Below are positions 1 to 20,295 of a DNA stretch of 64,000 nucleotides, one piece after another. How positions within the stretch are numbered: position 1 is the stretch's first letter; each line of letters opens with the position of its first letter. Source of the stretch: Pelomonas cellulosilytica. GTDB lineage: Bacteria; Pseudomonadota; Gammaproteobacteria; Burkholderiales; Burkholderiaceae_C. The stretch is from contig NZ_JAJTWU010000007.1 of the NCBI RefSeq assembly GCF_021353265.1, positions 124,001-188,000 of the forward strand, given 5' to 3'. The notes under the pieces were generated by a model. The model worked only from the letters and a program-made list of their open reading frames with translations. It was not told the origin of the DNA and ran no database searches. A program made the translations under genes and the position numbers.

Positions 1-467
1 GTCATGACCGAGAAGCGCCGCGTGGCGTTGGCGGCCATTTGGCCCAGCATCACTGCAGTCTCTTCAAGGCCCCAAACGCCTTCGATGGTGCGCTCCAGCT
101 CTGCGACCAGTCGGCTTGGCGCGGCTGGACGCGAGATGACGACTTCCACCTCGTTGGCGTCAGAATGGACCCTGTCTCGGTAGAGGCGTGCCCCTCGCAT
201 CAGCGAGGCAACTTCGCGGGCCATCCCTTGGGATAAAGCTACGGCCCACATGCCGTGAGAGTCCTTGCTCACGACCCCCGCGTCTTCGGCAGCCTGCAGC
301 GCGGTCAGAACCGCGGGAAGCCGCGAGCTGCTAATTCCGCAGATCCGCGCGAGCTCTCGAGCGCCGTGCGTTCCGGGCAGCTTGCCCGCCCCTGCCCAGC
401 TGAGCGCAGGCTCGAGCACCTCGGCATGAGTCGCGAGTCGGACGAAGAGGTCGTCAGCTTGCTGCAC
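1..467 (-). CDS. drmC: DrmC-like phospholipase-D-fold protein of a DISARM system (5' part, runs off the window edge)
   Basis: About 155 N-terminal codons are visible; the catalytic HKD part lies beyond position 1. The frame opens at a GTG (467-465) that overlaps the end of drmB by 14 bases, and no closer ATG exists in this frame. The N-terminus (VQQADDLFVRLATHAEV) leads into a helical region that could be a winged helix (ARELARICGISSSRLPAVL). A segment VEVVISRPAAPSRL then precedes AVMLGQMAANATRRFSVM, the layout expected at the start of the PLD-like fold in DrmC proteins. DrmC is part of the DISARM core, but its exact role is not settled in the literature. The identification rests on position after drmB and weak pattern similarity, since no HKD motif is in view. 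Confidence 0.6.
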   Translation of the reverse strand, partial: MQQADDLFVRLATHAEVLEPALSWAGAGKLPGTHGARELARICGISSSRLPAVLTALQAAEDAGVVSKDSHGMWAVALSQGMAREVASLMRGARLYRDRVHSDANEVEVVISRPAAPSRLVAELERTIEGVWGLEETAVMLGQMAANATRRFSVM

Positions 468-2691: not shown

Positions 2692-2693
2692 CT

Positions 2694-5600
2694 TCACTCT
2701 CCCAAATCTGAACCCTCGGCCACGCCGCAGCGGATGAATCGCATGACCTTGCGCGCAACTCCGTCGCTGACTCCATGACGTCCATCTAGATCACGATGGC
2801 CAAAGTAGATGACTCCAGCCTCGTCGACATCTCGGAGGGAAGTCATCGGCCTGTTCATGACGCTGGGCTGCGCCTTGAAGTAGTCCATGAGGCTGCGTTG
2901 CTCACCTAGCGCGTCCCGAGCCCAGTTCGTCAAAAGCGTCTCGACCCGTTCGCGGATGAGCTCCTGGTAGTGCTGCTTGCCACCGGGCGCGAAGTCACCT
3001 TCCAAGCCGATGGCTTTCTCGATGAACTCGCAGATGCCCTTGATAAGGGGGCCCTTGGTCGCGGCGTTCTTGTAGATGTCGACGATGAACGGAATCCAGG
3101 ACAGGTCTCGCAGGGTGTGCTTCTTGTCCGGGTCGAGCTTGTAGAGCTCGGAGACGTAGCGCACGCCGGAAAGGTAGGCTTGGATGAAGCTTGGCAACAC
3201 TCGCTCGATGGCCCGGCCAGCCCAACGGTCGATGGCCGCCGGCGAAACCATCCGCTCGAGGAAGCGGTGGTAGCTGTCAAAGACCTCAACGATGTAGCGG
3301 TCGCGGCGGCGCTGAGGCGTGGGGATGAGTACGACAAACCCCACGTGCGTGCGACCCACTCGCGAGGAGGCCTGGATGTACTCCGCGACGTCCGATGGCA
3401 TACCGGCGAAGAACATTGAGTTGAACTCTTCGACGTCCACGCCGTGCGAAACGGCCGAGGTGGCAATCACCGAGCGCAGCGCATCGGTGAGTTCGGGCAG
3501 CGGCTCCCCAGGCTTGGGGCGCGTCTGAGCTTCTTGAACTGTTGCCTGAATCTCGCCCTGGGAAACCGAGCCCGTGATGAGATTTGTGCGCAGGTCGGAA
3601 ATGGGGAGCTTGCGCTCCGCATGCCTCTTGCGCGTCTCCTCGAACTCTGCGGCCATGATCTGATCGCCACCCTTCTTGTTGGTGACGTAGGTCAGCGCGA
3701 TTCGATGCAAGTCGACGACGGTGGCGAGCTCTGACGGCGACACCTCCAGCAGCTTGTCCCTGTAGAGCTGCTCGAGTGTTCCGGGCGAGACGCTCTCGAC
3801 TAGCTTGGCGCGGGCTGCAGCAACCTGAGCCTCGTCGCCCGAGGTCAGCGCCAGCAAGACCTCGGTGATGATGGTGTGGAAGTTGGAGAGCACTGCCACG
3901 GTTGTCGCAGTATGGGCTCGACCGTTGGTCATGAAGCCGACGTAGACGCGGCTCCAGCGCGACCACTCCTCGACGTTTTTCAATGTGGCACGCTGCGACT
4001 CGTCTTCAGGCGGCGCGGTCGGGCCTGCATAAAAGGACTCGTAGAGGCTCTGTCCTGGATACGGGAACTGCATCGCCGGCACGGGCCGCTGATAGAGGTG
4101 TTCGAGCTGCCGGTCGGGGTCTGAGACCGTGGCAGAAGCGGCCACCACTTTGGCCCGGCGGCGAGTGCTGCCGTCGGGCTCGTAGGCCACGAGCGCGTAG
4201 AGCGGCTTGGCGATAGACGTCAGCACCGCGTCGAGGGCTGACTCGAACAGGCCTGCGAACGTGCCCAGGGACTCGTCGAGCAGGTGTGCCTCGTCTTGGA
4301 TGAGCAAGCTCGGGAACGGGTCGTGGAAGAGGTGCGTTCCGTCCGGATAGGCCGGATAGAGCTTCTCGTAGCCCTTGCTCTCAACGTCCCCCTCGAACTC
4401 GCTGGTCCTCGAGGGCATGACTAGGCGCTTGGTCCCTCGGTCGCGAAGAGGTGCCGCCCCCAGCATCGCGTAGATGCGGCGCAGCGTGCCAGATGACTGG
4501 CCGATGAGGGCTAACTTGTCCACCGTGCCCAACAGCACTGAGGGCGCGAGGTCGTAGATGTCGACGTCGCAGATGTAGAACGGCAGCGGCTGGTAGCCAC
4601 CGGTGTTCGACTCGCACCTAGCGTTAGAACACACGTGAGCGAGTGTTCCGCCCTTGTCTGCGAATCGACGCAAGACCGTCTCACTGCGGCAAAACGGGCA
4701 GCTTGGAATCTTGTTCCATGCAGCCTTCTGCAGCTCATAGTTGACCTCTGCAGCCTCGTGGTCTCGCTCGGACTTGAGGTCTGCTGGGACTTCCTGGATG
4801 TCAGGGATGTCGGCCACACCGGGCGCGTAGTGATTGTTCGGCGATCCGCCGCTACCCACCCAAAAGCCGATGGCGAACGGGTCACCACCGATGGCCAAGT
4901 GCTTGCGGACCTGCTCGGCCCTGGCCAGCGCCAAGGCACAGCGCTGCGCTTGCTGGATGGTCAACAGTCGCAGCGGGTAGCGAATCATCGCGGTCACGCC
5001 GACGTGCTTACCGCGCAGCCGGTCGAGGAACAGTGAGAACACCAGCAGGCCGAAGAACGCCTCGGATTTGCCGCCACCCGTGGCGAAGTAGAGCAGCGAG
5101 ACCGTGTCGTCGCGCTCCCGGTCGTACTTGTCGCGGAAGCACTTCATGCGGCTTGCCATCGCAGGAACGTGCGCGATGACGAAGGCGATCTGAAAGAGGC
5201 GCCACGCGCCGTAGTCACTCTTGAGCTTGTCGCGCATGAGGTCGGCCATCGCCTGGTTCATGCAAAGCCAGGCCTCGTAGACCACCGCCTTGTCATCGGC
5301 TTGAGGACCGCGTTTTGCGGTTTTGTCCCATGCGGCTTTGGACTCCTGCAAGATCTCGAGGCCGGCCTTGACTGCGGCTATCTCCTTCTCCCAGCCCTGC
5401 TTGTCCTTCGCGAAGCCCCCTTGCTCGCGCTCTAGACCCGTTTTGTCACCAGGCTCCAGACCCGCTGCGAGGTCTACTGTCTCGTCGAGCTTGGCAAACC
5501 AGTCATCCAACGCATCACCTAGAGGTAATACCGCATCTAGCCCCTCGGGGGTGGCCAGGAACCGCATCGTGGGGTTGATGCCTGCGTAACTCTTGGGCGT

Positions 5601-6890
5601 GATGCGGGGCTGCGTGTAGCGCGGCGCCCAAGTTGTGCGCAGCCTGAGCGAATTGGGGTCAGGCGAGTGCTGCAACTGCACCCCGCCGTTGAAGCCCATC
5701 GCTGGGTAGTCTAGGAAGCTGTTGTAACGATAGGACGCCTCCACACGCCCCAAGCGCAGCGGAGCGTGAAGCACTCGCGGCATGGAGACCTCCAGATGCA
5801 CCTGAAAGATGCTCTGGTCTGTGAGGTCGGCACTGCGTCGCGGCTCTTCCGAGACGTTTTCCAGGCTGATGTGAAGGTTGGTGCGCGTCGGATGGGTCCA
5901 GTCAGCCGACAGCTTCACCTCCCACGACAAAACGATCTCTGGCAGCGCCAGCTCCCGCGTCGGGTCCGCCCGCAGCTCTTCAAGGAACTTCGGCCAGTCC
6001 CGGTACTGCGACGGTCGAACGACGACGCCTTTGCGCATGCACCACAACTTGCCCTCGTCCGAGTCCGCCCACTGGCGCACCGCAAGCTGGACGGCTGCGG
6101 TCAAGTCGCCCGAGGCCTGCTTGACCTTCGCCGCGATCTCCGCAGTCGACATAGCCGGGTCGATGACCAGAGCGGGGAGGTGGGCCTGGTCGATAGGGAC
6201 GCGCAGCCACTTGTGCGGCAGGTCCATCGGCTTAAAGACCTCATCGCGGATCTCGGGCAGCACCCCGCCGGTCGCCACAACACCTTCGCCAGACCCTTCA
6301 CCTGGCTCGGCAGTGCCATCGCCCTCGACGGAGAACAGCGTCGTGATATTTACCGGCAGCTTCAAGCGCTCAAGTACCTCGCGCCGTACGGCCTGCTCAA
6401 TCTCTCGCCACTGAGGATGGTCGATGCGGCGCTTGTAGGACTTGCCCGCCGATTCAATCTTCCAGCGCTCACTGAGCGCTTCCTTGGTCTGCGTCTGCAA
6501 CAGCTTGCGGACCTCATCGCTCAGCCGAAACCGCGGCGCGCAGTCCGGTCGCTTCATGTCCTCAGGCGTGGGCAACACACGGACATAGACCTGCAGTCGA
6601 GGTTCGACCGTGATGATTCCGGGGATTCCGCGGTGAACCTGGCAATCCAGGCCATGTGCCGTAATGCGGATGGGTTGCGTCACCTCGTCGCCCGTGCCTT
6701 CTGCGCGCAGAGGCGGCAGCAGGAAGGCCGCAGCCAGGATGGAGCGAGGTCGAGAGCCAAATAGCACCTGGCCTTCTGGCCCATGCCCGCTGATGCGCGA
6801 GAACGTCAGGTTCAGCAACGAGTCGACTGTCGCTTCCTTGAGCGTGGTCGAGATCTTGGCCGGGTCGGCGCGAACGACAGCACTACTCAT
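2694..6890 (-). CDS. drmA: DrmA-type DEAH helicase of DISARM anti-phage system
   Basis: A 1,398-aa superfamily 2 helicase expected to load on and move along invading DNA. Motifs are well preserved: Walker A ATGGGKS at residues 603-609, DEAH at 866-869, SAT at 919-921, SHGVDV at about 1148-1153 and QASSRVGRT at about 1173-1181. An inserted four-cysteine cluster (CPFC at 731-734, then C754 and C759) between motifs Ia and II suggests a zinc knuckle. About 590 residues precede Walker A and lack recognisable motifs, as is usual for DrmA. The ATG at 6890 has AGGGAG nine bases upstream. The gene overlaps the upstream 952-aa gene by 8 bases and its stop overlaps the start region of drmB, so translation is probably coupled. 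No catalytic residue is missing. Confidence 0.92.
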   Translation of the reverse strand: MSSAVVRADPAKISTTLKEATVDSLLNLTFSRISGHGPEGQVLFGSRPRSILAAAFLLPPLRAEGTGDEVTQPIRITAHGLDCQVHRGIPGIITVEPRLQVYVRVLPTPEDMKRPDCAPRFRLSDEVRKLLQTQTKEALSERWKIESAGKSYKRRIDHPQWREIEQAVRREVLERLKLPVNITTLFSVEGDGTAEPGEGSGEGVVATGGVLPEIRDEVFKPMDLPHKWLRVPIDQAHLPALVIDPAMSTAEIAAKVKQASGDLTAAVQLAVRQWADSDEGKLWCMRKGVVVRPSQYRDWPKFLEELRADPTRELALPEIVLSWEVKLSADWTHPTRTNLHISLENVSEEPRRSADLTDQSIFQVHLEVSMPRVLHAPLRLGRVEASYRYNSFLDYPAMGFNGGVQLQHSPDPNSLRLRTTWAPRYTQPRITPKSYAGINPTMRFLATPEGLDAVLPLGDALDDWFAKLDETVDLAAGLEPGDKTGLEREQGGFAKDKQGWEKEIAAVKAGLEILQESKAAWDKTAKRGPQADDKAVVYEAWLCMNQAMADLMRDKLKSDYGAWRLFQIAFVIAHVPAMASRMKCFRDKYDRERDDTVSLLYFATGGGKSEAFFGLLVFSLFLDRLRGKHVGVTAMIRYPLRLLTIQQAQRCALALARAEQVRKHLAIGGDPFAIGFWVGSGGSPNNHYAPGVADIPDIQEVPADLKSERDHEAAEVNYELQKAAWNKIPSCPFCRSETVLRRFADKGGTLAHVCSNARCESNTGGYQPLPFYICDVDIYDLAPSVLLGTVDKLALIGQSSGTLRRIYAMLGAAPLRDRGTKRLVMPSRTSEFEGDVESKGYEKLYPAYPDGTHLFHDPFPSLLIQDEAHLLDESLGTFAGLFESALDAVLTSIAKPLYALVAYEPDGSTRRRAKVVAASATVSDPDRQLEHLYQRPVPAMQFPYPGQSLYESFYAGPTAPPEDESQRATLKNVEEWSRWSRVYVGFMTNGRAHTATTVAVLSNFHTIITEVLLALTSGDEAQVAAARAKLVESVSPGTLEQLYRDKLLEVSPSELATVVDLHRIALTYVTNKKGGDQIMAAEFEETRKRHAERKLPISDLRTNLITGSVSQGEIQATVQEAQTRPKPGEPLPELTDALRSVIATSAVSHGVDVEEFNSMFFAGMPSDVAEYIQASSRVGRTHVGFVVLIPTPQRRRDRYIVEVFDSYHRFLERMVSPAAIDRWAGRAIERVLPSFIQAYLSGVRYVSELYKLDPDKKHTLRDLSWIPFIVDIYKNAATKGPLIKGICEFIEKAIGLEGDFAPGGKQHYQELIRERVETLLTNWARDALGEQRSLMDYFKAQPSVMNRPMTSLRDVDEAGVIYFGHRDLDGRHGVSDGVARKVMRFIRCGVAEGSDLGE

Positions 6891-9741
6891 TCTTCACTTC
6901 TCCCTGGGGCTTGCGGATGGCTTCGACGGTATGAATGTTTTCCTTGGCCCGCTCGAAGAGCATCTTCACGACCTCGGGCCTAAGGCGGCGGTGCACCACA
7001 GTCGACTCAGGCTCGAGCAGCATCTCGGCGTAGACATCCGAGACGCGACGGCCGTCTGCCCGGCGTACGCCTCGAAGCGGCTGAATGACGGCCTTCCAGA
7101 AGTAAACGGCGTGGATGTCGTTCATTCCAAGGGTCTTGGCAAACGCCTTGAAGTGGGCTTCGTTGCGAGGGGCGCCGGGCTTTGCATCGTCGAACGAGCG
7201 GCCGGCATACCGGTCCACGTCGAGCCAAGCTCGAACCGTGCCCTCGGCCGGAGGCGCTCCCTTGGGCCCAAGCGCGTGGGTGATGGCTTCGTGCAGGTGC
7301 GCCGCCCTCAAGCTCAGCGTCGTCCCCGGAATCTGGGCGGCCAGATCGCTCACCGTTCGGTGGTAGCGGCGAAGGTCTTCCTCGAAGCGGCGGTCGTGGC
7401 TGATGGGGACGCCAGCCTCCTTCAGCGCCGCCTCGGTGAGCTCCCGGAGCTCCAGAGACATCACGAAGAGCCGGTCGCCTTCTTGGAGGTTCAAGACATC
7501 CACGCCCTTGAACCCGCGGGTTGAGGTGTGTCCAAGTGCTGGATCGTAGAGGTAGGCCCGAGCTGCGGGGCTTCGCTTGACGACCGCGCCGCTGTCCAGC
7601 ACCAGCTCCCAGGCGTTGGGATCGTGCTCCTCATGCTCGTTCACGACCGATGACAGCCCCTGCTCGAACGAGAAGGTCGGAAGGACGAAGTCACCGCGCT
7701 TGAACAGCGTGTACTCGTCGATGTCAGGGAACTCGGGCAGTTGGTGCCAGAGCGCGTCGAGCCGACTGCTCAAGCTCGCAAACCCCGCCAGCGCACGAAT
7801 AGCCTTGATCGTTGCCTTGAGGTACGCCGCGTTTCGGCGGGTCAGAAGCACATAGGCCGGCGACGAAATGCGGGGCTCCAGGACGAGCATGCGCAGAGAC
7901 ACCTCGTCCAGACCCACGAAGATCAGGGTCTCATTGCGCGGGGCATCGGTCTCGGCCTCGAGGTTGCGTGAGACCACGAAACGGACGCAGTCACGCAGCA
8001 CCTCAAAGCCCGCACCCTCCGGGTAGCCGTCGTAGGTCTCGAAGTAGCGCTCGGCCAGGCGACGGGCGGTGGGCTTGGTGAAGACAAGGCTGCACTTCTC
8101 GGTGCCTCGAGTCCGCTGCTCAATGAGCTCGGCGAGCATGCGGGCCAGCGGTGTACCGTTCTCATAGTTGCGCCACATTTCATCGCCTTTGGTGATGACG
8201 CGCTCCAGGCGCGGGCGCTCTCCGAAGGTAGGGTCGTTGCGGATGACTTCGAGCTTGGACTTGTAGACAGGCCAGGCGTAGTTTTGGCGAACAGCCATCG
8301 GCACGTCAGCCTCACCGAGCCAGTTCACGAGCACGCGAGTGCTTGAAGGCAATGCAGCCAGGCGCGCGAGGTAGCCGGCAGCGGCGTCCATCGCATCGGC
8401 CCAGGTCGGATTGGTCACAGCGTTTCGAATGCGCGTCAGCATCTCGATTACGTTGGCAGCTTCTGTGTCGACTACGTTGACGACAATCTGCCTGCTTTCA
8501 GGCTTCAGCGGTTCCGGCCGCACCTGGGGCATCAAGCTGTCGCCGCTGACCGCGCAGATGGCGCCGCGCACCGGCAGGCCCGAGCGAAGCAGCCACGCCG
8601 CAGCCGGGCTGTTCTTCTTCGCACGCTTTTCAAGCTCTTGCCCGAGCTGAGTGCGCACGTGCGGCTCGTCGATGACCAGCAGCACGGGCGGAATTCGTTC
8701 CCGCCACACCTCCCAGGCACAGTCGAGGAACTTGACGATGTTTGTCTTCCATGACGGGTTGTCTCGGCGCAGGGCCCGGGTTGCGTCCAAGAGCAAGACA
8801 TCGGGCTGGCGACCGTTGCGCAGGCTCTTGAGGCACTGCTGCATATCCGCCTCGGACGCCTTCCAACTGACCGCAAGGAGTGCGTCCGGCGCGTTGTCGA
8901 TCTCGCCGATTGCGCGCAACGACAGGTTGCTGAGTGCCCGGCGGTGGTCGACGTCCGTGATGCGCGCCTTGACGTACCGCAGCAAGTCACCGTCACAGGC
9001 CTTCCACGACTGGAAGTCTTTGTCGGCAAAGAAGTGCGGAAGCAGCTCCGCAAGAGTCGGGTGAATTTCGCCGGAAGCGTCTGCGCGCACGCTGTTGAGG
9101 GCAAACCAGAACGCATCCTTCTGCGGCAACGAGACCGTTACAGAAGAGTTGGTACAGCCGGATACCGCCTCCTCGAGCCGCTGCGCGAGCCTGACGAGGG
9201 CCGCGCGGTCAATATGGGCATGGTTGAGCGCCTGCAGGAAGTTGGCTTTGGCCGGATAGACAAGTGTTCGAACGCCTTGCTTGTCGCCTTGATGCCAACG
9301 AACGGCGCACGCGACGGCGTGCACCATGCCCAGCGAGCGAAGAGAGCCCGGCCACAGCAGCACAAGCCCCGAAACCTTAGTTTCCGCGGCGTGCAAGAGC
9401 TCGGAAGCAAGGGCCTCGACTGACGTGGCCGTCTTCAGTGATGTCGTCGCGTCGTCAGCCCATAGTGGAAGCGCGAAAACGGCGGGTGGCGCCTCCTTCG
9501 ACACTTGGCGCGCTGCGGGTGGCGCCACGGCCGAGCCGCCGGATGGGCTTGTGGCTGTAGGCTGATCCAAACCGTTGCGCGCTTTGGATGGTCTGCCAGG
9601 CCCGTCGCCTGTTGCCTCAACGGCGGGGCCACGCATCCACGGCAGCCTGGCTGCGAGCGCCTTTTTGTGCTCGGCCGCAAGTTGCTGTTTCTCCGCTCTG
9701 TCGCGAGGAAGCTGGTTCCGTCCCTTGTCTGACCTGTACAT
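6883..9741 (-). CDS. Helicase-like protein with degenerate P-loop, DISARM-operon subunit (952 aa, DrmE-like or new)
   Basis: I do not recognise this family with certainty. The first 90 residues are charged and Pro/Ser-rich, probably a flexible tail. A RecA-like fold is suggested by GLVLLWPGSLRSLG (about 125-138), which sits where Walker A belongs but has no GK[ST]; by VRTLVYPAKANFLQAL (157-172), like motif Ia; by VLLVIDEPH (353-361), like Walker B with an intact Asp-Glu; and by SLVFTKPTARRLAERYF (551-567), like helicase motif IV. No SNF2 signatures are visible, so it is not a standard DrmD. It sits between the methyltransferase and drmA, where class 1 and class 2 DISARM carry different accessory subunits. 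DrmE, the poorly characterised class 2 protein, is the nearest candidate by size and place. I infer a structural or DNA-sensing role rather than active translocation. Confidence 0.6.
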   Translation of the reverse strand: MYRSDKGRNQLPRDRAEKQQLAAEHKKALAARLPWMRGPAVEATGDGPGRPSKARNGLDQPTATSPSGGSAVAPPAARQVSKEAPPAVFALPLWADDATTSLKTATSVEALASELLHAAETKVSGLVLLWPGSLRSLGMVHAVACAVRWHQGDKQGVRTLVYPAKANFLQALNHAHIDRAALVRLAQRLEEAVSGCTNSSVTVSLPQKDAFWFALNSVRADASGEIHPTLAELLPHFFADKDFQSWKACDGDLLRYVKARITDVDHRRALSNLSLRAIGEIDNAPDALLAVSWKASEADMQQCLKSLRNGRQPDVLLLDATRALRRDNPSWKTNIVKFLDCAWEVWRERIPPVLLVIDEPHVRTQLGQELEKRAKKNSPAAAWLLRSGLPVRGAICAVSGDSLMPQVRPEPLKPESRQIVVNVVDTEAANVIEMLTRIRNAVTNPTWADAMDAAAGYLARLAALPSSTRVLVNWLGEADVPMAVRQNYAWPVYKSKLEVIRNDPTFGERPRLERVITKGDEMWRNYENGTPLARMLAELIEQRTRGTEKCSLVFTKPTARRLAERYFETYDGYPEGAGFEVLRDCVRFVVSRNLEAETDAPRNETLIFVGLDEVSLRMLVLEPRISSPAYVLLTRRNAAYLKATIKAIRALAGFASLSSRLDALWHQLPEFPDIDEYTLFKRGDFVLPTFSFEQGLSSVVNEHEEHDPNAWELVLDSGAVVKRSPAARAYLYDPALGHTSTRGFKGVDVLNLQEGDRLFVMSLELRELTEAALKEAGVPISHDRRFEEDLRRYHRTVSDLAAQIPGTTLSLRAAHLHEAITHALGPKGAPPAEGTVRAWLDVDRYAGRSFDDAKPGAPRNEAHFKAFAKTLGMNDIHAVYFWKAVIQPLRGVRRADGRRVSDVYAEMLLEPESTVVHRRLRPEVVKMLFERAKENIHTVEAIRKPQGEVKNE

Positions 9742-9803
9742 CTCGTTTTGCTATTGAAGTGGGTCTCAAGTGGCGGGGGCGTCCATTGACTAGAGCGCTT
9801 GGG

Positions 9804-11540
9804 TCAGCTCGCCGAGAGGTAAGCGGCTCGGACCGCGTCGTCGAGACAGGTCCCATGGCTTTTTAGTTCCGCAAGGCGGGCGGGGTCGGGCAGCAACAGC
9901 TCGTCGAGTTCTGACACCGCCACGTTGCTGGCCCCAGAGATGGCGCGGAACACTCGGTCGACCGGCTGCGTGTTCAGGATGGCAGCCAGCTCTTCGGGCA
10001 GTAACGCCCCTTCGCTCAAAGGTTCCAGCACGATCACATGGTTCTCACAGACATAGCCTCCAAACCTGGCAACCCATGCTGCGGATACCGGCGCGGCGAC
10101 CAATCGGCGCTTTTGGTCGCTTGACGTCAGGCGCTGCAACAGGACAGCAGGCTTTGAGATGACCCCACGGTCTGCCAAAGAGCCGATTTGGACGAAGCGG
10201 CGGTTGCGGCTGAAACGGCACTCGCGACCGTGATCAAAGCGGCCATCTGGCGTGATGTCGGTCGCCCAAACCAGTGGCACCACCAACCTGCCGGGACGGA
10301 CATCAGGTAACTGCGCGAACCGGGGCCGCACGTCCCGATATGCAACCAAGTGGCCGACGCGGGCTTCGTACCCGTAGTCCGAAAGGGTGAAACCACCCGA
10401 CTCCGCTGACTGAAGCAAGCTGGCGTCACTCGCGGCTCGCGGGATGGGCCAGGGGCGGCCGGAGTTGGGCAACAGGAACTTGCCGACGTCTTCGAACCGA
10501 CCGTCGGCTTTGAGGACGCTCACCCCGGTCTTCGAGTCGACCACTTTGCTTGCGGCACGGCTTCGCAAAATGGTGATTGCGGTCTCCTGTTCAACGTCGA
10601 TGAACATGGCGTTGCGGTCACTGAGCATGTCTACATGCAAGGTGTCGGCATGCGTTAGGAGCTTCGTGCGTAGCTTGGAGAAGGACTGCCCGGATAAGAA
10701 GCTTGTCGGAGTAAGCAGTCCGACGAGGCCACCTCGCCTAACAACCTGAAGGGTTCGGTTTATGAAAAGCCCGTAGATGTTGGGCTGTCCTTCAACCACT
10801 TCGCCGTGCGCCCTTCGGTACCGTTCAACCTCGGTGGCTTTGAGCTTTCGATAGGGTGGATTGCAAGCCAAAACATCGGGCTGCAACGCTTCGATGCTCG
10901 TTGAGGTGAGGCCGTCACCCTCGAAGAGGCGCACCGAAAGATCGCGGCCGGCGACTGCCAACTGATCTGACAACGCCATCCGCAGGAACTGACGCGATAT
11001 CTCAAGTAGTGCGGGGTCTAGGTCGTTGCCGCTGAGGTGGCGATCTATGTGTTCCAACTGCGAAGCTGGCGACAAGCCCGTCCGCGCGAGAGCAGCGGCC
11101 ATCCGCTGAGCGATCGGAACAAGGAAAGCCGCTCCACCGCATGCAGGGTCGTGCCAGTGCTGCGTGGTGAGCGACGCGCCCTGATCTACGAGCTTGTCAA
11201 TCACCCGGTCAGCGAGGCGCGGCGGCGTGAAATAGAGTGACCTCTCAGCTCGGAGTTTGTCGCCGACCAATATGGCGTACGTGCTCGCTAGCCAGTAAGC
11301 GGCATCGTTGAACGGCTCGTCGGAAAGCCAAGCAGCGAAGTCCTGGACGGCGCTTTCGTGGAGGAGCTGGCTGCTTCCGTACGGGGCACGTTTAGCGGCT
11401 AGGTGAGCGAAGGATCGCTGCTGCCAAAGGTGCAGTAGGCCCTTGACGAGGCGTTCCACGCTGTCCGGACTTCGGCCAACGAGAGGCGCCAGAGCCTTGA
11501 CTCGGCGATAGAACTTGAGGCGTGGAACAGGGATGACCAT
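9804..11540 (-). CDS. N6-adenine DNA methyltransferase (DrmMI-like) at the head of the DISARM operon
   Basis: This 578-aa class I methyltransferase would methylate adenine in host DNA so that the DISARM effectors spare it. It has YFTPPRLADRV (103-113), the AdoMet motif I DPACGGAAFLVP (131-142) and the catalytic NPPY (227-230). The C-terminal 300 residues resemble target-recognition parts of Eco57I/HsdM-type enzymes (a GRLVVPLVWATDITPDG segment and a terminal region GASNVAVSELDELLLPDP). It is short for a type IIG enzyme and has no visible nuclease motif, which fits a pure modification subunit. The start ATG is at 11540, and 62 bases separate its stop from the next gene, so the five genes read as one operon. 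Recognition specificity cannot be read from the sequence. Confidence 0.85.
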   Translation of the reverse strand: MVIPVPRLKFYRRVKALAPLVGRSPDSVERLVKGLLHLWQQRSFAHLAAKRAPYGSSQLLHESAVQDFAAWLSDEPFNDAAYWLASTYAILVGDKLRAERSLYFTPPRLADRVIDKLVDQGASLTTQHWHDPACGGAAFLVPIAQRMAAALARTGLSPASQLEHIDRHLSGNDLDPALLEISRQFLRMALSDQLAVAGRDLSVRLFEGDGLTSTSIEALQPDVLACNPPYRKLKATEVERYRRAHGEVVEGQPNIYGLFINRTLQVVRRGGLVGLLTPTSFLSGQSFSKLRTKLLTHADTLHVDMLSDRNAMFIDVEQETAITILRSRAASKVVDSKTGVSVLKADGRFEDVGKFLLPNSGRPWPIPRAASDASLLQSAESGGFTLSDYGYEARVGHLVAYRDVRPRFAQLPDVRPGRLVVPLVWATDITPDGRFDHGRECRFSRNRRFVQIGSLADRGVISKPAVLLQRLTSSDQKRRLVAAPVSAAWVARFGGYVCENHVIVLEPLSEGALLPEELAAILNTQPVDRVFRAISGASNVAVSELDELLLPDPARLAELKSHGTCLDDAVRAAYLSAS

Positions 11541-11673
11541 GGAAGGCAGGCGTTACCCGAAAAATGAAACGGTGTAACGAAGTGCCTATCGGCTGCACCC
11601 AGAGTGCGCATTCCTTCTGTCCAAGCCTAACCCTGCCATACGCGTCCTCCCTAACCATCTTGTTGCCGCAGCT

Positions 11674-11700
11674 TCTATAGCAATAGTCCCTTTAGATCAA
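11674..11700 (-). promoter_or_regulatory. Candidate promoter of the DISARM-like operon
   Basis: On the minus strand TTGATC (11700-11695) and TATAGA (11679-11674) are separated by 15 bases, about 135 bases before the methyltransferase ATG. The spacing is 2 bases shorter than ideal. This is the best sigma-70-like pair in the 222-bp gap, but it is only a pattern match. Confidence 0.3.
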
Positions 11701-11762
11701 TAAGGGCTAGCATCAGGGCCCTCGGCGTTCAACCGCGCCCGTCTTCTCGGTGCGTGCGACGC

Positions 11763-11882
11763 ATGGGCGCGGGCAGCAAGCCTGTGAGCCCGGAGCAGAT
11801 GGAGATCGCGCGGCTGCGCGCCGAACTGGCGCGAGTCAAGATGGAGCGCGATGTATTGGGAAAAGCGACGGCGTGGCGTTGA
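11763..11882 (+). pseudogene. IS3-family OrfA (transposase helix-turn-helix subunit) remnant
   Basis: Thirty-nine codons (ATG 11763, stop 11880-11882) encode SPEQMEIARLRAELARVK followed by MERDVLGKATAWR. This is the leucine-zipper end of IS3-family OrfA, where the family reads roughly EiarLraElarvkmErDiLkKAtA. The preceding helix-turn-helix region and the whole of OrfB are missing, so this is a scar of an old insertion. It lies between the DISARM promoter region and the integron cassettes. Confidence 0.6.
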
Positions 11883-12157
11883 TTTTTTGGGTCGATCAAA
11901 CCCGTTTGCATATTCCGAGGCGACCTGAGCACCAGGTCCAGCGTCTTCTGAGCATGGAATCCAGCGCCTGGTGAACACCTTGTCTGGACGTGTCGTGCAG
12001 GTTAGCGTCCGGAGACTTGATCACTCGGTCCAGCGTCAAATGTGGAAATGCCGGCCGCTTCAGGCTGGCTGCTGCCGCTCGCACTTGACCTACGTGCGGC
12101 AGCTTCGTGCCCGAAGCGGACGTCGGCAAAGGCCTCCCAAGCCTCCAGAAAGCTGCC
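11883..12157. other. Spacer with no recognised gene
   Basis: About 275 bp between the IS3 remnant and the terminal attC site. Both strands give only short open frames without family features. It contains small palindromes (for example GCTGCCGCTCGC and GTGCGGCAGC around 12,070-12,105) but nothing I can name. It may be former insertion-sequence or integron flank DNA. Confidence 0.4.
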
Positions 12158-12226
12158 GTTCAACGTTTGAGTTGAGCCTCGAGCGGCGGCCTGCCGACGC
12201 GAGTCGGTTCGAGCGACTGGTTAGAT
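12158..12226 (-). other. Integron attC recombination site (69 bp) of the HEPN-gene cassette
   Basis: Read on the minus strand, the site opens with ATCTAAC (12226-12220, fits RYYYAAC) and closes with GTTGAAC (12164-12158, fits GTTRRRY). Between them AGTCGCTCGAACCGA and GAGGCTCAACTCAAACG form the imperfectly complementary L boxes. The layout closely follows the well-known aadA1 attC. It begins 6 bases after the stop codon of the upstream leftward gene, as in typical gene cassettes. Confidence 0.8.
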
Positions 12227-12232
12227 TGCTGA

Positions 12233-12745
12233 TCATTCGCGATGAGCAGCTTTCCCTTCAGTCAAGTGAGTTTGATAGTAGCGATTGGCATTCGGCGGTA
12301 GGTCTACGAACGCATCCACGTCGTCCTCGACATCAACCAAATGCTGGTACAGGTATCGAATGCTCTCTAGCGCCGGTTGCAGGTCGGGGATCTGCATTTG
12401 GTTAAGTTCATCAAGGTGAGCCACGAACTTGTCGCGATACGCTCGGACAACGACTCGGTATTGCTCGAATTCCTCTTCGGTCTTGCCCGTTATTTGCCAA
12501 AGACCTTCAGCGAAATTTGCTGTATCAGAAACGCACTTTTCCCAATGGTGCTTTGCTCTCTGATCGCCATAGACCTTGCACCACTCGAGCACTGCCGTGT
12601 CAATGAAGTTGCCGTTAATCGTCCGCCAGAACTCTTGCTGCTTGCGCTCTAGCTTTGCGGCGTTCCATCCGCGGTGATAGGCAAGGTTCCGCATGAAGTG
12701 CAGACACAGAATTCCGGTTCTTCGCAAGCGTGAACGCCGATTCAT
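12233..12745 (-). CDS. Integron cassette protein with HEPN-like R-x5-H motif (170 aa)
   Basis: A helical protein with EFWRTINGNFIDTAVLEWCK in the first third and RAYRDKFVAHLDELNQ at residues 101-116. R104 and H110 form R-x5-H, the signature of HEPN-fold proteins, many of which are RNases in toxin-antitoxin and abortive-infection systems. Nuclease activity here is inference; the protein may also be a non-catalytic member. The gene ends 6 bases before an attC site, so it is a mobile gene cassette. The first ATG is 12745, but Met18 (12694), just before RNLAYHRGW, may be the true start, because the extreme 5' end contains one copy of the 13-bp repeat that flanks the IS110 element and may have been altered by that insertion. 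No antitoxin-like partner is adjacent. Confidence 0.7.
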   Translation of the reverse strand: MNRRSRLRRTGILCLHFMRNLAYHRGWNAAKLERKQQEFWRTINGNFIDTAVLEWCKVYGDQRAKHHWEKCVSDTANFAEGLWQITGKTEEEFEQYRVVVRAYRDKFVAHLDELNQMQIPDLQPALESIRYLYQHLVDVEDDVDAFVDLPPNANRYYQTHLTEGKAAHRE

Positions 12746-12779
12746 AGAAGCAGCCTAGACAAGATGGCTTCGTGATCTG

Positions 12780-12893
12780 AGGCGGCCCGACCCCTGCGGT
12801 GCCGTAGGTTGCAGGCGCGGGGCCTGCAGAGCTACACCAAGGCACCCGGCAGGTGGTCTGCCGGGGCGTTGCGAGTGAGCAAGGAGTCGGGCC
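12780..12893 (+). ncRNA. Candidate bridge-RNA region of the IS110 element
   Basis: IS110-group elements express a structured bridge RNA from the non-coding end next to the transposase gene; it pairs with donor and target DNA. Here the 5' flank contains two strong hairpins: GCAGGC/GCCTGC (12811-12827, loop GCGGG) and CCCGGCAG/CTGCCGGG (12845-12865, loop GTGGT). The position just upstream of the transposase ATG (12894) fits. The guide loops themselves were not assigned. Confidence 0.4.
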
Positions 12894-14054
12894 ATGGGCA
12901 AGGAATCTAGCACCCTGTTCGTCGGGTTGGACGTGCACAAGGACAGCATCGACATCGCCTTGGCGGATGCGCCGCGCGACGCCGAGGTCCGGCACGTCGG
13001 CAGCATCAAGGGCGACCTCGCGTCGCTTGACAAGTCCATCCGCAAGCTCGTCAGCCGAGGCCAGCCGCTGCACATCGTCTATGAGGCGGGTCCCTGCGGC
13101 TACGTCATCCAGCGCCACCTCTGCGCCCAGGGCCTGCACTGCGACGTGGTGGCGCCGTCCAGCATCGCCCGCCCACCGGGCGAGCGCATCAAGACCGACC
13201 GGCGTGACGCCATGCTGCTGGCGCGGCTCGCGCGCTCGGGCGATCTCTCGGTGGTGCGCGTGCCCGACAGCGTGGACGAGTCCGTGCGTGACCTGGTGCG
13301 CGCCCGCGAGGACGCCGTGCGTGAGCAGCGCAATGGCCGCCACCGCCTCAAGGCACTGCTGCTGCGCAACGGCATCCCCTACGCCGGCAAGTCCTCGTGG
13401 ACGGCGGCGCACCTGCGCTGGCTGGCCACGGTCAAGCTCGGCCACACGCCCCAGCAGATCGCCTTCCAGGAGTACCTGCACGCGATCACGCAGGCCGGTG
13501 AGCGCATCGCCCGGTTGGAGCAGGCGCTGCGCGACGCGCTGCCGGACTGGGGCCTGAAGGCCGTAGTGCAGGCGCTGCAAGCCCTGCGCGGCGTGCAGTT
13601 GATCGCGGCGATGACGCTGGTGGCGGAGTTGCAGGACTTCCTGCGCTTCGAGTCGCCGCGCCAGCTGATGGCCTACCTGGGGCTGGTGCCCACGGAACAC
13701 TCCTCCGGCCCCAAGCGCAGGCAGGGCGCGATCACCAAGGCCGGCAACAGCGCGGCGCGGCGCATGCTGGTCGAAGTGGCGTGGCATTACCGGATGGAGC
13801 CCCGGGTGAGTCCGATCATCGCGGCGCGCCAGGACGGGCTGCCCGAGGCCGTGACGCAGATCGCGTGGAAGGCGCAGACGCGGCTGTGCAACAAGTTCAA
13901 GCGCCTGAGCGCGCGCCGGCTCATGAAGACCAAGGCCGTGGTGGCGGTCGCTCGCGAGTTGGCCGGGTTCGTGTGGGCCATCGGGCGCGAGGTCCAGCTC
14001 TCGGGCTGGGCGGGCATCAAGCCAGAGCCGACGGCGCCAGCCCGGGCGGCGTGA
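12894..14054 (+). CDS. IS110-family transposase (DEDD recombinase, 386 aa)
   Basis: The N-terminal RuvC-like DEDD domain shows VGLDVHKD (D13), IVYEAGP (E64) and KTDRRDA (D102, D105). The C-terminal Tnp20 domain has the catalytic-serine segment TKAGNSAARRMLVE with S286. Length is typical for the family. All catalytic residues are intact, so the element may be active. IS110 enzymes move through a circular intermediate guided by a bridge RNA. The start ATG at 12894 gives the usual short N-terminal tail before FVGLDVHK, and AAGGAG lies about ten bases upstream. Codon use is as GC-rich as the backbone, unlike the neighbouring cassettes, which suggests a related host as source. Confidence 0.95.
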   Translation: MGKESSTLFVGLDVHKDSIDIALADAPRDAEVRHVGSIKGDLASLDKSIRKLVSRGQPLHIVYEAGPCGYVIQRHLCAQGLHCDVVAPSSIARPPGERIKTDRRDAMLLARLARSGDLSVVRVPDSVDESVRDLVRAREDAVREQRNGRHRLKALLLRNGIPYAGKSSWTAAHLRWLATVKLGHTPQQIAFQEYLHAITQAGERIARLEQALRDALPDWGLKAVVQALQALRGVQLIAAMTLVAELQDFLRFESPRQLMAYLGLVPTEHSSGPKRRQGAITKAGNSAARRMLVEVAWHYRMEPRVSPIIAARQDGLPEAVTQIAWKAQTRLCNKFKRLSARRLMKTKAVVAVARELAGFVWAIGREVQLSGWAGIKPEPTAPARAA

Positions 14055-14405
14055 CGGTCGTCTTGATCAACAGCGCCGCGCCAAGGAGGTGACGCGCCAG
14101 CATCAGCACCAGAGGCCGGACGGGGAACGCGGCGCAGCTGCGGCCATCAAGGGAACCCTCGAAAACGTTATTGAGCGTGAACGCCGCGCAAGTGGCCGGA
14201 TCGACCTCAGACCCTAGACCGAAGGCAGCCCTGCGACGAACACTTGTCTTGAGGTATCCAACCCTCGCATATCAGCATGATCAACCGTCGCGCATCCACA
14301 TCGGGTGGCAATTCAGGCTCCGTCGCGTTCCCCGTCCGGCAACGGGTTCAGTTCAAGATCTGCAGCGCAGAGGGCCGGGTCTTGCCGCTTGACAAGAAGA
14401 AGCCA

Positions 14406-14534
14406 TATCAACGTTTGAGCTAAGCGGGCAACGGCGGCAGGGTGCCAAGCCCGGGCTGGCGACAATGTACCGTGTACCGCCAGACCGGGCTTGGTGCCCT
14501 GCCGACGGTGCTCCGCTTGAGCGATGGGTTAGGC
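14406..14534 (-). other. Integron attC recombination site (129 bp) of the GNAT cassette
   Basis: On the minus strand it starts with GCCTAAC (14534-14528, perfect RYYYAAC) and ends at GTTGATA (14412-14406), a near match to GTTRRRY. The L-box pair CATCGCTCAAGCGGA and CGCTTAGCTCAAACG is present. Inside, 26-base arms at 14436-14461 and 14478-14503 pair with three mismatches, giving the long folded stem typical of large attC sites. The stop codon of the leftward GNAT gene lies within the first box. The remaining sequence from 14187 to 14405 shows no gene. Confidence 0.8.
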
Positions 14535-15008
14535 AGCCCCGCCGCCCTGCACGTGCAGCAGACACTGGAGTTCCAAGACTTCGTCTCCGTGCGCGTCGAT
14601 GGTCCCGGTGAAGCGCCAGCCGAGGTGACGATAGAAACCATGTGAACGGCTTTGCGGATTTGCTGAGCAGGCGAGGAACAGGCGTGCATGGCCGTGCGCA
14701 ACAAGCTCGCGCATAACCTTTGATAGAAGTTCCTTGCCGATTCCGAGGTTCTCGAACTCCGGGAGCAGCGCCAGAACCGTTACTTCTCCGCTCAGGCGCG
14801 AGCCAAAGCAATAGCCAACCAACTGGCCTTCGCAGCGACACACATGTCCGAGCGCGTCTCCAGCACGAACTGCTTGAGCCCAGTTCTCTTCAGTGATGCC
14901 GATTGAGCGAAGCTGGGTTTCAGAGATTGCGTTCTGGCGCGTTCTCGCTCGCAGACTGATGCATTCAGCAGCGTCTTCAGGCTTGGCAGTGGAGTACTGA
15001 AGATGCAT
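14529..15008 (-). CDS. GNAT-family N-acetyltransferase, integron cassette gene (159 aa)
   Basis: A single-domain acetyltransferase using acetyl-CoA. The central strand-helix VTVLALLPEFENLGIGKELL contains a Q/RxxGxG/A-like acetyl-CoA loop (NLGIGKELL), followed by ARLFLACSANPQSRSHGFYRHLGWRFTG, the standard C-terminal GNAT motif B. The substrate is unknown; cassette GNATs often act on antibiotics or toxins, but nothing here shows that. ATG 15008 is preferred over the upstream TTG (15020). The gene sits 24 bases after the GTTAGGC boundary of the cassette and ends inside its own attC, so the cassette is complete and is the first one after the attI-like site. Confidence 0.85.
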   Translation of the reverse strand: MHLQYSTAKPEDAAECISLRARTRQNAISETQLRSIGITEENWAQAVRAGDALGHVCRCEGQLVGYCFGSRLSGEVTVLALLPEFENLGIGKELLSKVMRELVAHGHARLFLACSANPQSRSHGFYRHLGWRFTGTIDAHGDEVLELQCLLHVQGGGAA

Positions 15009-15031
15009 GGCAGAGTGCAAGTGCTTGGGCT

Positions 15032-15075
15032 GCCTAACGTGTTCTCGGGAGACAGCCGCTGCTGCTTAGGCAGGA
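15032..15075 (-). other. attI-like site at the head of the cassette array
   Basis: On the minus strand the sequence CAGCAGCGGCTGTCTCCC, then GAGAACAC, then GTTAGGC (ending at 15032) aligns closely with the 3' part of class 1 attI1, which reads CAGCAGGGCAGTCGCCC, then TAAAACAAA, then GTTAGGC. The GTTAGGC core gives the left boundary of the first cassette. A degenerate short attC is the alternative reading, because GCCTAA occurs about 40 bases upstream. No integrase gene is found next to it. Confidence 0.45.
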
Positions 15076-15404
15076 ACAGTGCGCCACAACATGTCCCTGG
15101 TTGGGCGCCGCAAGTGCTTGACTCATCAGCGTTTTCTCAAAAAGTTGACGGGCGAACCGGTCATTAAATTTCCGACAAAAGCGGCACGTTGTTACAAGTT
15201 CAAGTCGCGCCAGAACGGCGTGCTTGTAGCCCAGATGATGCCAGCCCAGGTTCGCTCGATCTCCGTGAAAACTGCCCTGCTCGCGGTCTGGCATCTGACG
15301 CAGCGCCGGGTGTTTCTCCCAATGCTGCCGTTCGGCGATCGACTGTCAGCGGCAGCTCAGGGCACATTGCTGCCCTACGGACGCCGGCCGCGAGCGTCAG
15401 CAGT
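15076..15404. other. Region beside the attI-like site with no recognised gene
   Basis: In a complete integron the integrase gene would lie here, divergent from the cassettes. I read all frames and see no tyrosine-recombinase motifs. The longest frames (86 aa minus, 120 aa plus) have no family features. A 10-base repeat CAAGTGCTTG occurs at 15018-15027 and 15111-15120. The integrase may have been lost before or with insertion of the adjacent MITE-like element. Confidence 0.4.
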
Positions 15405-15857
15405 CGCTGCCTATGCGCAGGTCGCAACTATGCGCAGGTGACGGGCGGGCGATCTTGACGTCCAGGATATTCGCGGCCTCCAAGGAGGAACGGGCGGCAG
15501 ACCTTGACATAGTTTTTGCGAGCATGAGGCGTTGCGGAGCAGCGTGTGATGCCGACGGCTGGTTGTCGCGCCCCGCGCCGGTCCTCGACCTGGCAACGAT
15601 GCATCGTCGAACCCAATCACGCGAGCGCCCGCATTCAACGGCTAACCGACCGGTCCCAGGCCCGCGATCCACTTCGGGGCGATGTCAGCCATCGACCTCG
15701 CCAAGACCGCAGTCGTAGCGGGAGCTGTGCAATCTGCGGACTTGTATCGCCGAAAAATATGCGCAGAAGCTGCAGCGCGTCTCGTGCGGCGCTCATAGGG
15801 GACTTCTGCTGTCACGGCTTGATCGTGCGCATAGTTGCGACCTGCGCATAGGCAGCG
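15405..15857. mobile_element. MITE-like element with perfect 32-bp terminal inverted repeats (453 bp)
   Basis: The 32 bases at 15405-15436 (starting CGCTGCCTATGCGCAGG) are the exact reverse complement of 15826-15857. Each repeat itself contains two TATGCGCA units spaced 18 bases apart, possibly transposase-binding sites. The 389-bp interior has no complete gene; a short frame starting MSAIDLAKTA near 15687 recalls the N-terminus of IS110-type transposases but is too short to trust. No clear target duplication is seen at the flanks. The element is therefore non-autonomous and would need a transposase supplied elsewhere. I could not match the ends to a named IS family. Confidence 0.75.
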
Positions 15858-16059
15858 TTATGGAAAGCTCTCCATAGCGCTGCAGAGCTGCCGGTCGTGC
15901 GAGGCCATCATCGGTGCTCAGGAGCACTGGATCGCGTGCCCATCGTGCCGAACTGGATGCTCAGGTCCAATGGAATACGCACCCGTTTGCCTGCGGTGCA
16001 TCGATCAACCGCACGGCCACTTGCTGCAGGAACTGGGGCGCCTCGCCGCGCGGCGGTGA
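15835..16059 (+). pseudogene. Possible 5'-truncated small cysteine-rich (zinc-ribbon-like) protein
   Basis: The frame runs out of the right terminal repeat of the MITE-like element and encodes LQSCRSCEAIIGAQEHWIAC, then PSCRTGC and later VCLRCIDQPHGHLLQ. The C-x2-C, C-x2-C and C-x2-C spacing would suit one or two zinc sites. The only start codon upstream is a TTG inside the mobile element, so if the gene was real its 5' end was removed by that insertion. No homologous family is recognised. It could also be a chance frame. Confidence 0.3.
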
Positions 16060-16130
16060 TCAGCTCTCTCGCCGCGCGTTTGCTCGCGCCGGATCTGGGG
16101 AGGGCAGCAAGTCTTCCGTGGCAATAGCTG

Positions 16131-16158
16131 AAAAACGCCCCCCGAAGCAAGAGGGGCC
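16131..16158 (-). terminator. Probable terminator after the island ttcA
   Basis: On the minus strand GGCCCC and GGGGGC flank a short loop and are followed by GTTTTT (16136-16131). It lies about 45 bases after the stop of the leftward ttcA. The stem is only 5-6 bp. Confidence 0.45.
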
Positions 16159-16204
16159 CGCATCTTCCAATGCGCGCACCCTTCCAATTCAAAGACTTCG
16201 CGGA

Positions 16205-17149
16205 TCAGTCGATCGCTATGGTCTGTTGGAACTGGTCGATCGAGTCGTCACGGTCAAAGAGGATGTCTCCGTACGTCTTGTCGTATGCGACACCTTCGAA
16301 CTTCTCGAAGTCGAACAACTTGCGGTCCATCATGTGGGACGGCACGATGTTGGAGATCGCGGAGAACATGCTGCGCAGCCGCTGAGGATGCGCGCGATCC
16401 CAGCCCTGTAGCAGTTCCTTCATCGCCTGACGCTGCAAGTTGGGCTGCGACCCGCATAGGTTGCAAGGAATGATCGGAAACTGCATCGCGCCGGCGTACT
16501 TCTTGATGTCCGCTTCCTTGCAGTAGGCCAATGGCCGGATCACGACGTTGCTGCCGTCGTCGGACTTGAGCTTCGGTGGCATCGTTTTGATACGGCCGCC
16601 AAAGAACATGTTGAGAAGGAGCGTCTCAAGGATGTCGTCGCGATGGTGCCCAAGCGCGATCTTGGTGGCGCCGAGCTCTTTGGCCGTGCGATAGAGGATC
16701 CCGCGGCGAAGGCGGGAGCAGAGGGAGCACGTTGTCTTCCCAGGCGCCACCTTCTCCTTGACGATGCTATACGTGTCCTGCTCGACGATGCGGAACGGAA
16801 TGTCACGGTCGCTGAAGTAGCGGGGAAGGACATCTTCAGGGAAGCCCGGCTGCTTCTGGTCGAGGTTGACCGCAATGACATCGAACTTGATCGGTGCGAC
16901 GTGCTTCAAGTAGAGCAGCGTGTCCAACATCGTGTACGAGTCAGCCCCGCCAGACATGCAGGCCATGATCAAGTCACCATCTTGAATCATGGTGAAGTCT
17001 TGAATGGCTCGGCCTGTCAGTCGCCGGATCTTCTTCTGGACGCCCTGTTCGGAGTTCGACAGTTGTGGGGTCTCGCGCCTCAGGAACGTCTTTTCACGCA
17101 CCTCGAGGTGCGCCGGTTGCATGCTGGCGATGGGATCAAGGGTGTTCAT
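16205..17149 (-). CDS. ttcA: tRNA 2-thiocytidine biosynthesis protein TtcA, complete island-borne copy
   Basis: TtcA uses ATP and a [4Fe-4S] cluster to thiolate cytidine 32 of certain tRNAs. This copy is full length (314 aa): [19 protein letters not shown] leads into the PP-loop SGGADS (66-71), with CSLC (C141, C144) and PCNLC (C229, C232) providing cluster ligands, and GHHRDD between them. The usual lysine of SGGKDS is alanine here; the family signature SGGxDS is still met. ATG 17149 is chosen because GGAAG lies eight bases upstream; the frame stays open 69 codons further but without TtcA similarity. It faces away from the broken resident copy and differs from it at many positions, so it arrived with the island rather than by local duplication. 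It probably restores tRNA thiolation. Confidence 0.93.
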
Positions 17150-17353
17150 GGGCATTTCTTCCAGAGCCGCCGATTGTCTCTGAACAGAGCAAAACCCGTT
17201 GTCCGCGGCTCTGGGTTCGTGCTCCGTAGCGCGCTGGTGCGTGTCAACTTTGTCGTTTCTCGTCCCAGGAGCCCTCAATCTTGACGAATCGGCGCGCATG
17301 TCAAGTTTGATACGCGGGCTCGATTGCCACTTTCCTCTATGAATTCCGGGGCT

Positions 17354-17368
17354 CAAGAGGTCCTCTTG
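17354..17368. repeat. Palindrome CAAGAGG-T-CCTCTTG next to the island/chromosome junction
   Basis: Perfect 7-bp arms around a single T end 25 bases before the first resident ttcA codon. The position at the end of the island suggests a recombinase-binding site, but it could equally be incidental or an operator. Confidence 0.4.
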
Positions 17369-17369
17369 C

Positions 17370-18143
17370 TTGATGGTGGGTAGTCCAATAAGGAAGGACA
17401 GCTACTCGATGCTGGACATCCTGCTGAACCTGCAGCAGCGCGCGCCGATCAAGTTCGAGCTCGTGGCCGTCAACCTCGACCAGAAGCAGCCCGGCTTCCC
17501 GGAAGGCGTGCTGCCGGAGTACCTGAAGAGCCGCGGCGTGCCTTTCCACATCGAGGAGCAGGACACCTACTCCGTCGTCAAGCGCGTGGTGCCCGAAGGT
17601 AAGACGACCTGCGGCCTGTGCTCGCGGCTGCGCCGCGGCATCCTGTACCGCGTCGCGGGCGAATTGGGCTGCACGAAGATCGCGCTGGGCCACCACCGCG
17701 ACGACATTGTCACGACGCTGTTCTTGAACATGTTCTTCGGCAGCCGCATGAAGGGCATGCCGCCCAAGCTCGTCAGCGACGACGGCAGGAACGTTGTCAT
17801 CCGGCCACTGGCGTATGTAAAGGAGCCCGACCTGGTTCGCTGGGCCGAGCACCGCGAGTTCCCGATCATCCCGTGCAACCTGTGCGGCAGCCAGGAGAAC
17901 CTGCAGCGCGTGCAGGTCAAGGCGATGATCAACGAGTGGGAGAAGCGCTACCCCGGTCGCATCGACAACATCTTCACGGCCATGACCAACATCGTGCCTT
18001 CGCACATGATGGACAAGAAGCTGTTCCCGTTCGAGACGATCAAGGCCACCGGCGTGGCCGACGCCGACGGCGACATCGCCTTCGACGACGACGAGAGCTG
18101 CGCCACCCCGGCGCCGGCCTCCGTCATCACGCTGCACCGCTGA
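17370..18143 (+). pseudogene. ttcA: Resident ttcA truncated at its 5' end by the island
   Basis: From codon AAG at 17394 the frame encodes authentic TtcA ([20 protein letters not shown] onward) with CGLC, GHHRDD and PCNLC all preserved to the normal C-terminus, ending with a short acidic tail. The N-terminal 55 or so residues and the SGG of the PP-loop are replaced by MMVGSPIR, encoded by island DNA. Without the PP-loop glycines ATP binding should fail, so I treat it as inactive. The ORF itself has no stop or frameshift, which points to recent insertion. Base composition rises to backbone level exactly here. The missing 5' half should lie at the other end of the island, outside the window. 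Confidence 0.9.

Positions 18144-18915: not shown

Positions 18916-20295
<1,380 letters not shown>

Follow-up and report, generated by a model that had tools for sequence, protein, structure and literature searches.

Why does a ttcA gene without its start lie beside a complete, divergent copy of the same gene that faces the other way? The arrangement occurs in Pelomonas cellulosilytica, in a stretch of DNA of 64,000 nucleotides (the window, G000:C27:124001-188000, where G000 is the source genome; coordinates without a contig label are window positions). A sequence-only reading had proposed that an island broke the resident gene and carries its own replacement. The locus was compared across a genus sample of 20 genomes (including G000 and G013), three genomes of the genus g62 (G080, G191 and G268), and overlapping samples of the family (399 genomes), order (399) and class (312). 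Four island-type ttcA copies were found, in G000, G013, G191 and G268.

A resident ttcA in two parts

What the window retains of the resident ttcA is its 3' part, at 17392-18143 on the plus strand (NF007972, model positions 51-283). It is an open frame from KDSY onward, lacking the start, the N-terminus and the SGG of the PP-loop, as the sequence-only reading had stated, and the 5' part, which that reading had proposed to seek at the other island end, was located outside the window at G000:C27:90477-90645 (ATG to PP-loop, same strand). The two parts are 50.7 kb apart on one contig, the 5' part on the left, and a whole-genome search with the island TtcA returned three matches in G000, one for each part and one for the island copy itself. 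The 5' stretch sits behind an upstream neighbour, which we take to be folB, and then passes into island sequence. Downstream of the 3' part is a host gene (18916-20295, plus strand), presumably glmU, which also served as the locus anchor in G191 and G268.

Both parts flank a single island of 50,746 bp (C27:90646-141391), recognised by its two junctions and its gin genes, and the proposed breakage of ttcA was thereby borne out. The island starts 33,355 bp before window position 1 and its right-hand part fills 1-17391. The change in composition noted near position 17,393 coincides with the last element base at 17391, GC rising from 0.596 in the last 2 kb of the island to 0.681 in the first 2 kb of host sequence, with 0.716 at 18-34 kb.

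Uninterrupted, single ttcA genes, as anticipated for relatives, were present in 18 of the 20 genus genomes, and the gene was split in the other two, G000 and G013. The G013 island is 72,930 bp long with the same layout, and this recurrence of split and layout makes chance an unlikely source of the arrangement. An assembly error, or mere decay of the resident ttcA next to an island that has nothing to do with it, might be suspected where some genomes are drafts and G013 is apparently a metagenome-assembled record. However, the paired junctions recur in G013, where, as in G000, a single island parts the two halves at the same codon, and the single-contig genome G191 has the same 5' junction, hence we rejected this explanation as barely credible.

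The dN/dS ratio was 0.04-0.08 for the G000 fragment against its four closest relatives, 0.18-0.21 for the G013 fragment and 0.29-0.47 for the G191 fragment (compared with another genus), with a median of 0.19 across 123 pairs of intact genus ttcA genes. Neither the G000 nor the G013 fragment bears the marks of prolonged decay, in keeping with a recent split.

Gene content, ends and landing site of the element

A block of four genes, ginABCD, three of them of recombinase type and the fourth small, starts 653 bp inside the left end of the island (L025:6299-11993). The predicted proteins GinA, GinB, GinC and GinD have 433, 512, 805 and 146 aa in G000, and 450, 523, 818 and 162 aa in G013. GinA carries a phage-integrase domain (PF00589) and GinB matches a site-specific integrase model at 154 bits, under the curated cut-off of 350, while GinC and GinD had no family match in Pfam or NCBIfam. 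The gin block that follows ssb on plasmid pTROUS1 contains the best-match counterpart of each G000 protein, GinA to GinD (E-values 5e-18, 5e-22, 3e-16 and 0.002), and each gin protein of G013 likewise pairs with its counterpart there. Between G000 and G013 the gin proteins are 47-56% identical.

GInts were described in 2017 (PMC5385486) and named the Tn6571 family in PMC10121019. The 2017 description gives them a tyrosine-recombinase signature in GinA and GinB, degenerate in GinC, imperfect direct repeats of 10-17 nt, a 6-nt overlap, a short AT-rich right end, cargo of 2.5 to 70 kb or more, and ssb as one target; circle excision and integration are stated to need all four gin genes (PMC5385486). 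The island resembles them as portrayed there in its left-end four-gene gin block, large variable cargo, fixed target and 6-bp overlap, and in carrying putative defence genes, a kind of cargo also reported for GInts (PMC10121019). Judged by its ginABCD genes the element belongs to the GInts, with direct repeats shorter than those reported: the attL and attR overlaps share four of six bases in G000 and all six in G013, and no longer repeat was seen at either pair of ends. SEs also possess several recombinase-type core genes, fixed targets and a 6-bp footprint, but they have the order intA-tfp-intB-srap and form separate protein clusters. The order here is GinA-GinB-GinC-GinD, with a recombinase-like protein without family match in third place as in GInts, and does not match that of SEs.

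At the left junction of G000 the overlap GCAAAG (attL, C27:90640-90645) is followed by the left arm TTATTGGA (C27:90646-90653), and at the right junction the right arm TCCAATAA (17384-17391), the inverse of the left one, is followed by the overlap GGAAGG (attR, 17392-17397), giving 8-bp inverted arms around a 6-bp overlap. The G013 overlap is GCAAGG at both ends with imperfect arms, and the 5' junction of G191 reads GCAAGG then TTATTGGA. The right end between the island ttcA and the junction (17156-17391) measures 236 bp in G000 and 235 bp in G013, with GC of 0.551 and 0.574 (0.483 and 0.567 in the final 60 bp). An Rfam scan at gathering scores gave no match. In SEs, according to PMC10214605, the hexamer at attL is that of the original site and the one at attR a footprint of the site before it. 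If GInts behave likewise, the two G000 hexamers imply a site that was GCAAAG and a previous one that was GGAAGG; the latter would read Gly-Lys-Asp in frame, suggesting that the previous site was an earlier ttcA.

The crossover hexamer, GCAAGG or GCAAAG, falls in the PP-loop codons SGG-K-DS, across Gly-Lys-Asp. The 18 genus genes without the island carry GCAAGG (n = 16), GCAAAG (n = 1) or GTAAGG (n = 1), the 20 readable loci among 23 further family and order loci carry GCAAGG (n = 16) or GCAAAG (n = 4), and the single native ttcA of G080 has GCAAGG. (The core was not readable by the motif pattern in L065, L066 and L071 of the 23 loci, nor in the outgroups L084 and L085.) With one of the two hexamers in 38 of 39 readable island-free ttcA genes, the suggestion that conserved PP-loop codons form the target holds well. 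One of the 20 readable family and order loci, L083 (G022:C1:3796609-3797091), is the sole ttcA match in a single-contig genome and seems frame-shifted near residue 196, by damage or sequencing error.

The cargo of the 50.7-kb and 72.9-kb islands is largely different. Common to both are the gin genes, ttcA, a polymerase cassette, some small genes and insertion sequences. The cassette is of the error-prone type (L025:17135-18998 and L026:230-3319), its large subunit having DNA polymerase III alpha domains (Pfam); we take its genes to be imuA, imuB and dnaE2, and their order is inverted between G000 and G013. In the part of the cargo scanned, a defence-like cluster at 454-11540 (minus strand) encodes DrmB-like (747 aa) and DrmA-like (1398 aa) proteins, a 952-aa protein without family match and a type II-like DNA methylase, and is DISARM-like by two parts only. 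Left of the window (L026:16350-19517, minus strand; G000:C27:120350-123517) lies a gene for a 1055-aa protein with a SIR2 domain, which matches a full-length pAgo model and SIR2-bearing Argonaute-associated models. An IS110-family transposase gene (12894-14054, plus strand) lies about 2 kb from the stop of the island ttcA.

The island copy of ttcA

The island ttcA runs on the minus strand from an ATG at 17155 to a stop ending at 16205 and encodes 316 aa with the PP-loop SGGADS. It had been read as a full, divergent ttcA just inside the island and facing away, and its motifs are indeed complete. When a longer frame was scanned, the protein scored 451.8 bits (NCBIfam NF007972, cut-off 272), and the PP-loop SGGxDS and both CxxC motifs are present in all four island-type copies. 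A consensus scan found no promoter for the gene. Among the island copies dN/dS is 0.033-0.075 at dS of 1.27-1.97, which is near saturation but as expected of working genes under purifying selection. We infer that the copy would restore the lost TtcA function.

The G000 and G013 island copies are 91% identical in protein, and the island TtcA shares about 63-65% with the resident protein. Its nearest outside relatives are eight genes at 71-75% identity, all with SGGADS. In a ttcA tree (quick method, no bootstrap, L083 and L086 left out) the island copies form one clade next to these eight (SH-aLRT 100), and the G000 and G013 resident fragments group with their own genus. The divergence from the resident protein and the changed PP-loop residue could mean that the island copy has a different job, on another tRNA or in another modification, instead of taking over from the resident enzyme. 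We consider this highly improbable, as the TtcA equivalog cut-off is passed and all motifs are kept. Moreover, a search for further ttcA copies in six of the eight nearest-relative genomes turned up nothing except 26-29% matches in three, hence the nearest lineage seems to do the ordinary TtcA job there.

All four island-type copies read SGG-A-DS and so are without the landing core, with four, three, four and three mismatches to the six bases of GCAAGG in G000, G013, G191 and G268, respectively. As the core in SGGADS differs at three to four positions, the island copy is probably proof against its own integrase. A bare GCAAGG occurs once per strand elsewhere in the G000 copy, which implies that protection would need the flanks too. 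The missing core may also be plain ancestry, SGGADS being native to the nearest lineage in all eight genes.

Searches with the island TtcA returned three of the 399 family genomes (E-value 1e-130), nine of the 399 order genomes (1e-125), where G000 was the only island-type match and eight were the 71-75% relatives, and one of the 312 class genomes, G000 itself. Two of the eight relatives have one in-frame TGA within the matched stretch. In the family sample, GinA (1e-40) was found in G000 only and a GinC profile (1e-30) in G000 and G191. GinC searches gave one locus in genome contigs, apparently G013's own, none in viral contigs, and weak partial matches to five plasmid records. The element is rare in the searched samples, with island-type TtcA in two of 20 genus genomes. 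Annotated ttcA genes also occur on plasmid records of Salmonella, Klebsiella and Acinetobacter, at 57-63% identity to the island copy.

Other carriers and a proposed role for the island copy

In the single-contig genome G191 the resident ttcA is split, with about 32 kb between its 5' part and a shortened 3' part, and the gin block is missing the beginning of ginB as well as most of ginA. No intact ttcA other than the island-type copy was found in G268, where a short ginC remnant adjoins that copy; the resident gene is reduced to a frame-shifted C-terminal piece near the presumed glmU and perhaps a trace of the start (E-value 0.005), the ttcA pieces lying on different contigs. G268 looks like the end state of a gene swap. 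The island copy is opposite to the resident gene and at the right end in G000 and G013, and parallel to it and beside the gin genes in G191 and G268. The TtcA tree pairs G000 with G013, whereas GinC places G000 nearer G191 (63% identity, versus 50% to G013), a disagreement suggesting that elements have exchanged the ttcA module.

Our preferred reading is that a GInt-type island, with GinA, GinB, GinC and a small GinD, integrates at the 6-bp overlap GCAAGG/GCAAAG in the TtcA PP-loop, presumably by the action of the Gin proteins, and cuts ttcA into two parts that would both be useless. The island would bring a complete ttcA from another lineage, with Gly-Ala-Asp codons in place of the crossover core. 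If expressed and active, this copy would supply the lost tRNA 2-thiocytidine synthetase; without the core it would offer the element no landing site, such immunity may be why a copy of this kind was kept, and it could in time become the sole ttcA. That a GInt splits ttcA at the PP-loop and that the core-less full copy replaces TtcA is, on the sequence comparisons, well favoured. The wider proposal, of an insert-and-rescue element that breaks ttcA, is immune to itself, makes the host reliant on it and eventually swaps the host gene, as G268 suggests, we regard as evenly balanced. The need for rescue may be mild, as ttcA can be deleted in E. coli (reported in PMC4632033).

The island ttcA could instead be chance cargo, a foreign gene captured once by a ttcA-targeting GInt and kept where the resident was lost, with the missing core an ancestral accident of no role in the element. 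The native SGGADS of the nearest outside lineage, the varying strand and place of the copy, the discordant Gin and TtcA kinships and the varied cargo attributed to GInts in PMC5385486 are all consistent with this. We nevertheless think it unlikely, since all four island-type copies sit beside gin genes or their remnants at the ttcA locus, and the copy lies 236 or 235 bp from the right end in G000 and G013 although their gin proteins are only about half alike.

GInts are already known, as is ttcA as a target, through the Rac prophage of E. coli, for which it is likewise the landing gene (PMC4632033). Rac is described there as altering only four N-terminal TtcA amino acids and leaving one working gene, whereas the island splits the gene at the PP-loop and brings a second whole gene. 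A Rac-like prophage was rejected here, the recombination genes being gin-type and the cut at the PP-loop leaving parts 50.7 kb apart. The dusA-specific islands described in PMC4482086 also enter a tRNA-modification gene and replace what they displace, but they replace the 5' end of dusA, while the present island carries a whole gene separately. As described in PMC5385486, GInts occupy gene ends, 5' ends or intergenic positions and are believed to leave the target unharmed, in contrast to this island, whose target is cut in the catalytic loop and which carries a full replacement. The terms "ttcA" and "thiocytidine" are absent from the main text of that paper, and in the open-licence literature we found no report of a GInt that breaks its target mid-gene and brings a full, site-less replacement.

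Most reports describe islands that leave the target gene unharmed, through entry at a gene end or restoration of a few codons. With a complete replacement that lacks the site, an element could use a catalytic motif, one of the most conserved parts of a gene, as its address, and the host would be tied to the element. If true, this would be a natural parallel of a rescue copy without a target site, and would show concretely how a foreign gene can take the place of a housekeeping gene, with G268 as the apparent end state.
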